Of a stretch of 45,931 bases of DNA, positions 5,684 to 32,671 are shown piece by piece. The stretch lies in NCBI GenBank assembly GCA_902810695.1, contig CADDYV010000026.1, positions 1 through 45,931 on the forward strand, given 5' to 3'. Made by a program: the position numbers and the translations under genes. Below the pieces are notes generated by a model that was not told the origin of the DNA, ran no database searches, and saw only the letters and a list, made by a program, of their open reading frames with translations. The stretch's first letter is position 1; each line of letters begins with the position of its first letter. Source of the DNA: Actinomycetota bacterium. Its GTDB lineage: Bacteria; Actinomycetota; Rubrobacteria; Rubrobacterales; Rubrobacteraceae.

Positions 5684-5708
5684 TTTCACGGCAGTAATGG
5701 CCGTGAAA
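5684..5708. promoter_or_regulatory. Inverted repeat, candidate operator
   Basis: TTTCACGGC and GCCGTGAAA form a perfect 9-bp inverted repeat around a 7-nt centre (5693-5699). It lies 9 bp upstream of the plus-strand -35 box at 5718 and about 80 bp upstream of ruvC on the other strand, so a dimeric regulator bound here could act on either gene. There is no T-run, so it is not an intrinsic terminator. Confidence 0.5.
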
Positions 5709-5717
5709 GCAAAGTTA

Positions 5718-5746
5718 TTGCGTCTTCTGGAAGCCGTTGCTATAGT
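5718..5746 (+). promoter_or_regulatory. Promoter of the HTH-LCP gene
   Basis: TTGCGT (5718-5723) and TATAGT (5741-5746) are spaced by exactly 17 bp. Transcription would start near 5753, giving a leader of about 150 nt before the ATG at 5907. Confidence 0.6.
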
Positions 5747-5752
5747 TCCGTA

Positions 5753-5906
5753 TGTAACATAACTAACCCAGTAGAAGCGAAATAACCCGTACCCTCGAAA
5801 CTGGCGGGCACCTGGGTATGGGGGAGCTAGTGGTGCGACCGGCTACGAGGACTATAGAGACCTCGTGGCCGGGTTTTGTTTTTGAGAAGGCGGGGTTTAG
5901 ATAATC
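5753..5906 (+). ncRNA. Structured 5' leader, candidate cis-regulatory RNA or small RNA
   Basis: The leader contains competing pairings. CCCGTACCC (5786-5794) can pair with GGGTATGGG (5814-5822). ACCCAG (5766-5771) can pair with CTGGGT (5812-5817), and the two exclude each other. GCACC (5808-5812) can also pair with GGTGC (5832-5836). A strong intrinsic terminator follows at 5839-5883. Promoter, switchable helices, terminator and gene in this order are the layout of a riboswitch or attenuator. I do not recognise a known riboswitch class. A free-standing small RNA of about 130 nt is the alternative. Confidence 0.5.
5839..5883 (+). terminator. Intrinsic terminator inside the leader
   Basis: A 12-bp stem (5839-5850 with 5861-5872, one G-U pair) closes a 10-nt loop and is followed by TTTTGTTTTT. 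It ends 23 nt before the ATG at 5907, so it must be read through or prevented for the downstream gene to be expressed. Confidence 0.7.
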
Positions 5907-7100
5907 ATGAGCGGACAAACACAAAGAGCAACGGCGAGAAACCAGCAAGCGGAGCTTAGGGCGTTGGGCAGAAGGTTGGGAGAGATCCGCACGGAGCGCG
6001 GACTTTCTCTCGACGCTGTAGAACAGGCGGTCAAGATCCACGCCTGCTACCTTGAAGCTCTGGAGCGAGGGGAGCTGGATGTGGTACCCAACATCGCCTG
6101 GGCGCAAGGCTTTCTGACGACGTACGCTACATATCTGGGTCTGGACAGAAAGGCCATAGGCCTGGATGAGGAAACCCAGAAGACAAAGCCCCGACATTCT
6201 AAACTGAGGCGCTGGCGAAGGGTAATTCTCGGGCTGATCCTGGTAGCCATAGCAGGAATAATCGTCGTCGCCACCACCGTGGTTGCACCCTACAACGGGT
6301 TCACCAAGCGGATCACCGGCGCTCTTGGCGGGATCGCCCCGGGGATCTTCCTGGGCAGCGATACACAGCGGGTACTGATACTCGGTGACTTCGGAGATAG
6401 GGGCTCTGGCAAAGACAGCGTCGTGGTAGCCAAGGTGGCGAAGGGAAGCCTCGGGATGCTCTCGATTCCCCAGAACACCCAGACCAGGATACCGGGACAC
6501 GGAACTGGGGACATTGACCGGGCATTCTCCCTGGGAGGTCCAGGCCTGGTAAGCAAAACGACCGCCCAACTCATAGGCGCGAAAGTGCCCAACTATGTTT
6601 TGATCCAGGCCGACGGAGTTAGACAAGTTGTAGACGCCATGGGCGGCATACGCTTCGATGTGCCGGAGCAGATGAGCGGAAAGGCCACAGCAAATGGTCC
6701 CACGATAAACCTGAGCCCCGGAATGCAAACCCTGAGCGGGGACCAGTCGCTCGTGTACCTGCGAGGCAAAAACAACTGGAGTGACGCGGAACGCGCCAAG
6801 CGCCAGCAGGAATTCCTGTACGCGATGTTTAGCCAGGCGTTAAACTCTTCGAACCTGTTCTCTAATCCAACCACCCTGAGCGCCCTGATCGGAGACACCG
6901 AAACGAACATGAATAGCATCCAGATGATCCAGCTCGCAGGCCGGGCTAGATCGCTTGAAAACTCCGGAGTGAAGCTGCAGAGCGCCACTCTCCCCGGTAA
7001 GGAAAAAGCAGCAAATACGCAGCAGGGTGGCACGAGCGTGGGCTACTGGATACCGGACTCGCACAAGCTAAAGTCTGTGCTAAAGAAGACCGTGAGGTAG
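5907..7100 (+). CDS. RodZ-type HTH - membrane segment - LCP domain fusion protein
   Basis: 397 aa. Residues 17-80 match the RodZ/HTH_25 type of helix-turn-helix (LGRRLGEIRTERGLSL, YLEALERGELDVVP, GFLTTYATYLGLD). A basic stretch (98-105) precedes one membrane helix (106-128), and an extracytoplasmic LCP-like domain covers about 154-310. The domain keeps VLILGDFGD and the RGKNNWSDAERAKRQQEFL segment. The usual RTD and IPRD pyrophosphate-binding motifs read GKDS (168-171) and SIPQN (186-190), so catalysis may be altered or lost. A cytoplasmic RodZ-like head could tie it to the MreB cytoskeleton or to DNA. It is alone on the plus strand between yebC and ruvC, with its own promoter and a terminator-containing leader. 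Confidence 0.8.
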   Translation: MSGQTQRATARNQQAELRALGRRLGEIRTERGLSLDAVEQAVKIHACYLEALERGELDVVPNIAWAQGFLTTYATYLGLDRKAIGLDEETQKTKPRHSKLRRWRRVILGLILVAIAGIIVVATTVVAPYNGFTKRITGALGGIAPGIFLGSDTQRVLILGDFGDRGSGKDSVVVAKVAKGSLGMLSIPQNTQTRIPGHGTGDIDRAFSLGGPGLVSKTTAQLIGAKVPNYVLIQADGVRQVVDAMGGIRFDVPEQMSGKATANGPTINLSPGMQTLSGDQSLVYLRGKNNWSDAERAKRQQEFLYAMFSQALNSSNLFSNPTTLSALIGDTETNMNSIQMIQLAGRARSLENSGVKLQSATLPGKEKAANTQQGGTSVGYWIPDSHKLKSVLKKTVR

Positions 7101-12179: not shown

Positions 12180-12314
12180 GGTTTTCTTCTTTCCCCTGTA
12201 ATCTGTTACATCTACAGCGTCTCATCTCTCCTTAACGAGTTCTTTCGCAACCCAAGATCGTACCGTGAAAGATAGGACGCTGCTGCGCCTCAAAAGAGAT
12301 CAAACAATAAAAAA

Positions 12315-12427
<113 letters not shown>

Positions 12428-12483
12428 TTTCTTAAAAAGCATATTCAGTTGTAGAGGCCCTGCAAAAGCAGGAGCCCGGTCCC

Positions 12484-12502
12484 TGAAAACTGCATAGTGC
12501 GA
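12484..12502. repeat. 23S rRNA processing stem, 3' arm
   Basis: This 19-nt sequence is the exact reverse complement of 15530-15548 just upstream of the 23S 5' end. The two arms would form the precursor helix cut by RNase III. Confidence 0.8.
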
Positions 12503-12510
12503 AAAAACCA

Positions 12511-15519
<3,009 letters not shown>

Positions 15520-15529
15520 GCATTCGGAT

Positions 15530-15548
15530 TCGCACTATGCAGTTTTCA
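15530..15548. repeat. 23S rRNA processing stem, 5' arm
   Basis: TCGCACTATGCAGTTTTCA pairs perfectly over 19 nt with 12484-12502, flanking the 23S gene. The rest of the 16S-23S spacer (15549-15776) holds no tRNA gene that I can fold. Confidence 0.8.
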
Positions 15549-15612
15549 AAGACCAGGCACCTACGCTCTCGCGGGCGCATAAAACTCCGCCAAACTCAGG
15601 ACTCAAAGGCCC

Positions 15613-15626
15613 TGAAAACTGAATAG
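15613..15626. repeat. 16S rRNA processing stem, 3' arm
   Basis: TGAAAACTGAATAG is the exact reverse complement of 17445-17458 upstream of 16S. Partial pairing continues outward (GAAAGACAAAACCC with GGGTTTTACCTGTCTTTC), so the precursor helix is longer with a bulge. Confidence 0.75.
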
Positions 15627-15776
15627 CAGCTACTCGAAAGACAAAACCCTACAGCCAGAACTGGTCGAAGTGTCCTAGGTCGGAATCGCTTTCCGGAGCG
15701 GCGAGCTTTGCTCCAGCCTGCCCCGCTATGTAGGCGATCCGTCCGGTCGAGCGTTACCGCTCTACCGCACTCCCTA

Positions 15777-17325
<1,549 letters not shown>

Positions 17326-32402: not shown

Positions 32403-32474
32403 TGGGCGATAGTGGATTCGAACCACTGACCTCTTCCGCGTCAAGGAAGCGCTCTCCCCCTGAGCTAATCGCCC
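32403..32474 (-). tRNA. tRNA-Val (GAC)
   Basis: 72 nt. Acceptor GGGCGAT/ATCGCCC, D-stem GCTC/GAGC, anticodon stem CTTCC/GGAAG with loop TTGACGC (anticodon GAC), T-arm AGTGG-TTCGAAT-CCACT and discriminator A. The CCA end is not encoded. Confidence 0.95.
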
Positions 32475-32486
32475 GTCCACACCGGG

Positions 32487-32557
32487 AGGCGGCACCCGGA
32501 ATCGAACCGGGGTACAGGGTTTTGCAGACCCTTGCCTAACCACTCGGCCATGCCGCC
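32487..32557 (-). tRNA. tRNA-Cys (GCA)
   Basis: 71 nt. Acceptor GGCGGCA/TGCCGCC, anticodon stem AGGGT/ACCCT with loop CTGCAAA (anticodon GCA), T-arm with GGTTCGATTCC, and discriminator U, the tRNA-Cys identity base. The CCA end is not encoded. Confidence 0.95.
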
Positions 32558-32598
32558 AGAGCCGGCCGACACCGGTCGTTCCCCGGCTTTGCAGCCAG

Positions 32599-32671
32599 AG
32601 CGGACGACGGGATTCGAACCCGCGACCCTCACCATGGCAAGGTGATGCTCTACCAACTGAGCTACGTCCGC
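32599..32671 (-). tRNA. tRNA-Gly (GCC)
   Basis: 73 nt. Acceptor GCGGACG/CGTCCGC, D-stem GCTC/GAGC, anticodon stem TCACC/GGTGA with loop TTGCCAT (anticodon GCC), and T-arm GCGGG-TTCGAAT-CCCGT. First of the Gly-Cys-Val cluster. The CCA end is not encoded. Confidence 0.95.

Follow-up and report, generated by a model that had tools for sequence, protein, structure and literature searches.

A class II c-di-GMP riboswitch of the GAG form that probably switches on transcription of an HTH-LCP cell-wall gene in Rubrobacteraceae

The window analysed here is a stretch of 45,931 nucleotides from a member of the Rubrobacteraceae (Actinomycetota), and the leader of its HTH-LCP gene raises the question of what kind of RNA it forms and what this RNA does for the gene. 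A sequence-only reading had described the leader as a candidate new riboswitch or attenuator with a built-in terminator, or else as a stable small RNA. The parts from which that description was assembled, an inverted repeat (5684-5708), a promoter (5718-5746), a 12-bp stem followed by a U-tract ending at 5883, and an ATG at 5907, 23 nt after the U-tract, are all found in place. The analysis points, with a probability of about 80%, to a class II c-di-GMP riboswitch (clan CL00127, GAG form) that serves as a transcriptional ON switch for the HTH-LCP cell-wall gene.

The Rfam model search proposed in that reading, run with all Rfam families over the window, gave a single regulatory RNA. It lies at 5764-5853 on the + strand and matches c-di-GMP-II-GAG (RF03169) over the full model length with 46.1 bits (E 5.3e-6 for the whole window), the gathering score, or curated cut-off, of this family being 40 bits. 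The canonical family RF01786 scores the same copy at 41.6 bits, below its own cut-off of 53.5, and membership of clan CL00127, which holds both families, comes through RF03169. In alignments the copy has the conserved core GAGC and ACCG with A70 and G73, and its apical loop forms the pseudoknot of the clan with the 3' strand. On these sequence grounds the leader of the HTH-LCP gene is a member of the known class II c-di-GMP riboswitch family in its GAG-letter form. A new riboswitch class is ruled out by the Rfam match above cut-off, which also supplies the known class that the sequence-only reading had not been able to name; the element is a riboswitch that automatic annotation can find, a new member of an already known family.

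The window copy has G69, A70, G73, the C at position 37, the helices and the pseudoknot in common with the RF03169 consensus. The consensus closes the pseudoknot with U40-A68, whereas the window copy has G40-C68, like the canonical class; as the score clears the curated cut-off without it, U40-A68 is taken as a trait of the RF03169 consensus and not as a defining feature. With RF01786 (Cac and C. difficile Cdi-2 types) the copy has the fold, the pseudoknot and the ON-switch terminator logic in common, but RF01786 carries U37-A69 and the window copy C37-G69. The c-di-GMP-I class (GEMM, RF01051), whose ligand is c-di-GMP and which controls surface and motility genes, has a fold unrelated to the window element, and the all-Rfam scan gave no RF01051 match within the window.

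All parts of the aptamer (5764-5853, core 5771-5846) lie on the + strand. Helix P1 pairs GTAG (5771-5774) with CTAC (5843-5846) and is 95% paired over 80 copies, with three of its four pairs changed on both sides. A short second helix, AGC (5776-5778) with GCT (5826-5828), is 96% paired, and the long stem of CCCGTACCC (5786-5794) with GGGTATGGG (5814-5822), as RNA CCCGUACCC with GGGUAUGGG, has both-side changes at all nine pairs. The pseudoknot joins GCACC (5808-5812) to GGTGC (5832-5836) and is 98.4% paired over 80 copies, four of its five pairs being double-changed. Pocket position 37 (3Q3Z numbering) is at 5805; it is C here and U in canonical copies, and is a listed ligand contact (PMC7288161). 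Pocket residues 69-73, GACCG, occupy 5837-5841. When the consensus lines of the two Rfam families are read together with the ligand contacts listed for structure 3Q3Z (PMC7288161), the letters GAG appear to stand for residues 69, 70 and 73, that is G69 (5837), A70 (5838) and G73 (5841), where canonical copies have AAG.

The pairing segments of the long stem and the pseudoknot had been located correctly in the sequence-only reading, together with ACCCAG (5766-5771) and CTGGGT (5812-5817), and the pairings had been regarded as mutually exclusive. The long stem and GCACC/GGTGC coexist, because both belong to one pseudoknotted aptamer; an exclusive choice does exist in the leader, and it is that between P1 with the pocket and the terminator. 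The pairing ACCCAG/CTGGGT was rejected as a switching helix: of 48 testable relatives only the window copy has it, and it is taken as due to chance or private to this copy.

Conservation and covariation of the helices in relatives, on which the earlier proposal had been staked, are present and strong. A covariance model was built for this analysis and used to align 83 copies, 80 of them distinct. In the resulting alignment (A2), with relatedness uncorrected, 87% of the cells of helices and pseudoknot are paired, the score is 0.483 against 0.197 in shuffled and at most 0.147 in slid alignments, and 294 cells are double-changed against 98 in shuffles and 46-89 with partners slid. The helix pairs lean on the model in A2; the pseudoknot and the pair 37-69 lie outside it, and therefore the alignment could not force these pairs. 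A2 replaced a MAFFT alignment (A1), in which the long stem was misaligned and 58% paired.

The aptamer runs into an intrinsic terminator hairpin (5839-5872, + strand) with a 12-bp stem, the arms being 5839-5850 and 5861-5872. At -25.7 kcal/mol (z -5.4) the hairpin is far more stable than expected by chance, a value reached by none of 200 shuffles, and it is followed by the U-rich tract GTTTTGTTTTT (5873-5883, + strand; as RNA GUUUUGUUUUU). The 5' arm covers pocket residues 71-73 and the entire 3' strand of P1 (5843-5846), and therefore the ligand-bound aptamer and the terminator exclude each other. The sequence-only reading was right in seeing a transcriptional riboswitch that carries its own terminator ahead of the HTH-LCP gene. 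A terminator arm that overlaps the ligand-stabilised helix before a coding region is the layout of ON riboswitches; the real switch is P1 and the binding pocket against the terminator stem, and its direction is probably ON. C. difficile has four class II riboswitches, and these act as ON switches (PMC6366702). Of 55 Rubrobacteraceae copies, 37 have a terminator-like stem whose 5' arm lies inside, or at, the 3' end of the aptamer, including all six of the window's genome, and these stems typically have ACCGGCUACC within the aptamer and GGUGGCCGGUUUU 3' of it. In one copy (L024, G022:C53) CUGA stands in place of the normally invariant aptamer CCGG, and a change is seen in the 3' arm of the terminator too (CUGA); the changes give U-G and G-U pairs, a partial co-change of aptamer and terminator.

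The predicted promoter (5718-5746, + strand) consists of TTGCGT (5718-5723) and TATAGT (5741-5746) separated by 17 nt. The hexamers agree with the consensus at three and five of six positions, respectively, and an extended -10 TG is present at 5738-5739. The placement is supported by relatives, in which -10-like hexamers cluster 17-20 nt before the aptamer, and transcription is predicted to start near 5753. Just upstream of the -35 hexamer is the 9-bp inverted repeat with a 7-nt loop (TTTCACGGC, 5684-5692; GCCGTGAAA, 5700-5708), assigned to neither strand. Repeats of this kind (9 bp, loop 3-20) number 13 in the window and about 5 in shuffles, so that the one at 5684-5708 is by itself unremarkable, and its exact sequence is unique in the genome. 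On account of this near-chance frequency and unique sequence it was rejected as a part of the riboswitch; it is a possible operator.

The gene at 5907-7100 (+ strand) encodes a protein of 397 aa with an HTH_25 domain, a hydrophobic transmembrane segment (about residues 107-125) and a LytR_cpsA_psr domain, and is predicted to be a cell-wall glycopolymer ligase of the LytR-CpsA-Psr (LCP) type. LCP proteins are ligases that attach glycopolymers to peptidoglycan (PMC11481543). Within Rubrobacteraceae one clear full-length homologue was found, at G021:C102 (41% identity over 392 aa); the same riboswitch and terminator precede it directly, and it is the one homologous LCP gene found with the leader. 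Its neighbourhood differs, with a LuxR-type regulator upstream and no ruvC in the 4 kb read. The leader goes with the HTH-LCP gene, because the homologue keeps it despite differing neighbours. Such an arrangement would place a LytR-CpsA-Psr glycopolymer ligase of Rubrobacteraceae under c-di-GMP signalling, a connection of which the literature searches of this analysis found no description.

In the proposed mechanism RNA polymerase would start near 5753 and transcribe the aptamer first. With c-di-GMP bound, P1 and the pocket (C71, C72, G73) would hold CCGGCUAC, the terminator 5' arm would be unavailable, and transcription would run on into the LCP gene. With ligand absent, 5839-5850 would pair with 5861-5872 and transcription would end near 5883 with a product of about 130 nt. 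At high c-di-GMP there would then be more of the predicted ligase attaching glycopolymers to peptidoglycan.

The second reading offered from the sequence was a stable small RNA ending at 5883, and the strong terminator and the predicted promoter would indeed yield a discrete RNA of about 130 nt. That such an RNA has a function of its own in trans is most improbable, as its entire body is a riboswitch aptamer, the leader stays with the LCP gene across two genera in differing neighbourhoods, and the switch is expected to leave a short terminated RNA as a by-product; the small RNA would be at most this terminated transcript. An OFF signal, or an action of the ligand via translation rather than terminator read-through, is very unlikely at this locus, where the overlap of the terminator 5' arm with P1 and residues 71-73 sets terminator and aptamer against each other. 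The case for it comes from copies in G006 and G023 that have no terminator and in which GGTTGC adjoins AAGGAGG; these seem to act near the ribosome site.

For the transcriptional ON switch preferred here, the ligand deserves closer discussion. Rfam keeps the GAG form separate because ligand-contacting residues change, and Weinberg et al. reportedly suggested in 2017 that such variants might sense another signal, leaving the ligand open. Full-text literature searches found no ligand for the GAG variant. A C37-G69 pocket of the same fold could prefer another cyclic dinucleotide, or a linear product, to c-di-GMP. The separate Rfam family speaks for this, and so does the presence of both letter types in one genome, that of the window (G000), which has two DAC (c-di-AMP synthesis) domains; production of a mixed dinucleotide by a GGDEF enzyme is also possible in principle. 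Positions 37 and 69 are, moreover, both listed ligand contacts (PMC7288161). If this were true, the LCP gene would answer a different signal than the four canonical c-di-GMP-II copies in the genome, and a cell-wall ligase would be under a second cyclic-dinucleotide-like signal. Another ligand is nevertheless unlikely, since 37 and 69 change together as a base pair. Among 139 parsed copies this pair is U-A in 97, C-G in 36 and other in 6 (Fisher p ~2e-28, relatedness uncorrected), C-A and U-G intermediates occur among close relatives, and the neighbouring pair 40-68 varies independently of it, as G-C or U-A. Because 37-69 covaries and intermediates exist, G69 seems to be one side of a base pair exchanged with compensation and not the sign of a new signal.

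The two forms also swap before homologous genes. The pair 37-69 is C-G in the window and U-A in G021 before the HTH-LCP homologues, C-G in G021 and U-A in G020 before RTX calcium-binding homologues, and C-G in G172 and G293 and U-A in G302 before one further cluster of homologous genes; Ferritin_2 family genes have C-G and C-A forms. Because such swaps would rewire the genes if the signals differed, this pattern favours c-di-GMP as the ligand of both the U-A and the C-G form, and the covarying G69 together with both forms before homologous genes argues against GAG as a ligand change in this clade. The window's genome has 15 GGDEF and 9 EAL domains; a SMODS (DncV-like) nucleotidyltransferase was not found in it, which also speaks against another ligand. 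Elsewhere in this genome and its relatives the riboswitch stands before genes for surface and signalling proteins (Ig-like domains, PAS histidine kinase, SdrD/SpaA-like), the usual targets of c-di-GMP regulons.

The Rfam score was discarded as a guide to the pocket letters. L081 (1249-1334) and L005 (1501-1610) are called as RF03169 and read AAG, L140 (101-186) is called as RF01786 and reads GAG, and the pocket letters of Actinomycetota copies cannot be read off the name of the best-scoring Rfam family.

Matches were found in 118 of 396 genomes sampled from the phylum and, within the family, in 19 of 39, and the named matches with the exact GAG pattern are all from Rubrobacteraceae. The window's genome has six (five besides the window copy), five of them above cut-off, and two sister copies pass the RF01786 cut-off with 68.8 and 62.1 bits. 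Two canonical c-di-GMP-II riboswitches of this genome, at G000:C2:98547-98632 and 101558-101644 (L090), are 3 kb apart, and both precede large Ig-like (Big_13) proteins of one family. The sixth copy (L093, G000:C96:5632-5719) is weak (33 bits), has the pocket letters GGG (G70 besides G69) and precedes an AAA/NACHT-type protein; it is possibly degenerate or a further variant.

Elsewhere in the family, G021:C72 carries a divergent riboswitch pair on opposite strands (L072, 4209-4299 and 4523-4610) with about 220 bases between. Two identical riboswitch-gene units in G006:C583 (L087), inverted and 4 kb apart, may stem from recent duplication or from an artefact of assembly. A 2-kb segment common to G020:C292 and G021:C4, from two uncultured Rubrobacteraceae MAGs, has riboswitches and gene starts that are identical in both (L071/L089), which may reflect cross-binning or very recent transfer. 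The window itself also contains a complete rRNA operon (16S, 23S, 5S), which occupies 12313-17325 of the - strand; three tRNAs lie at 32403-32671.
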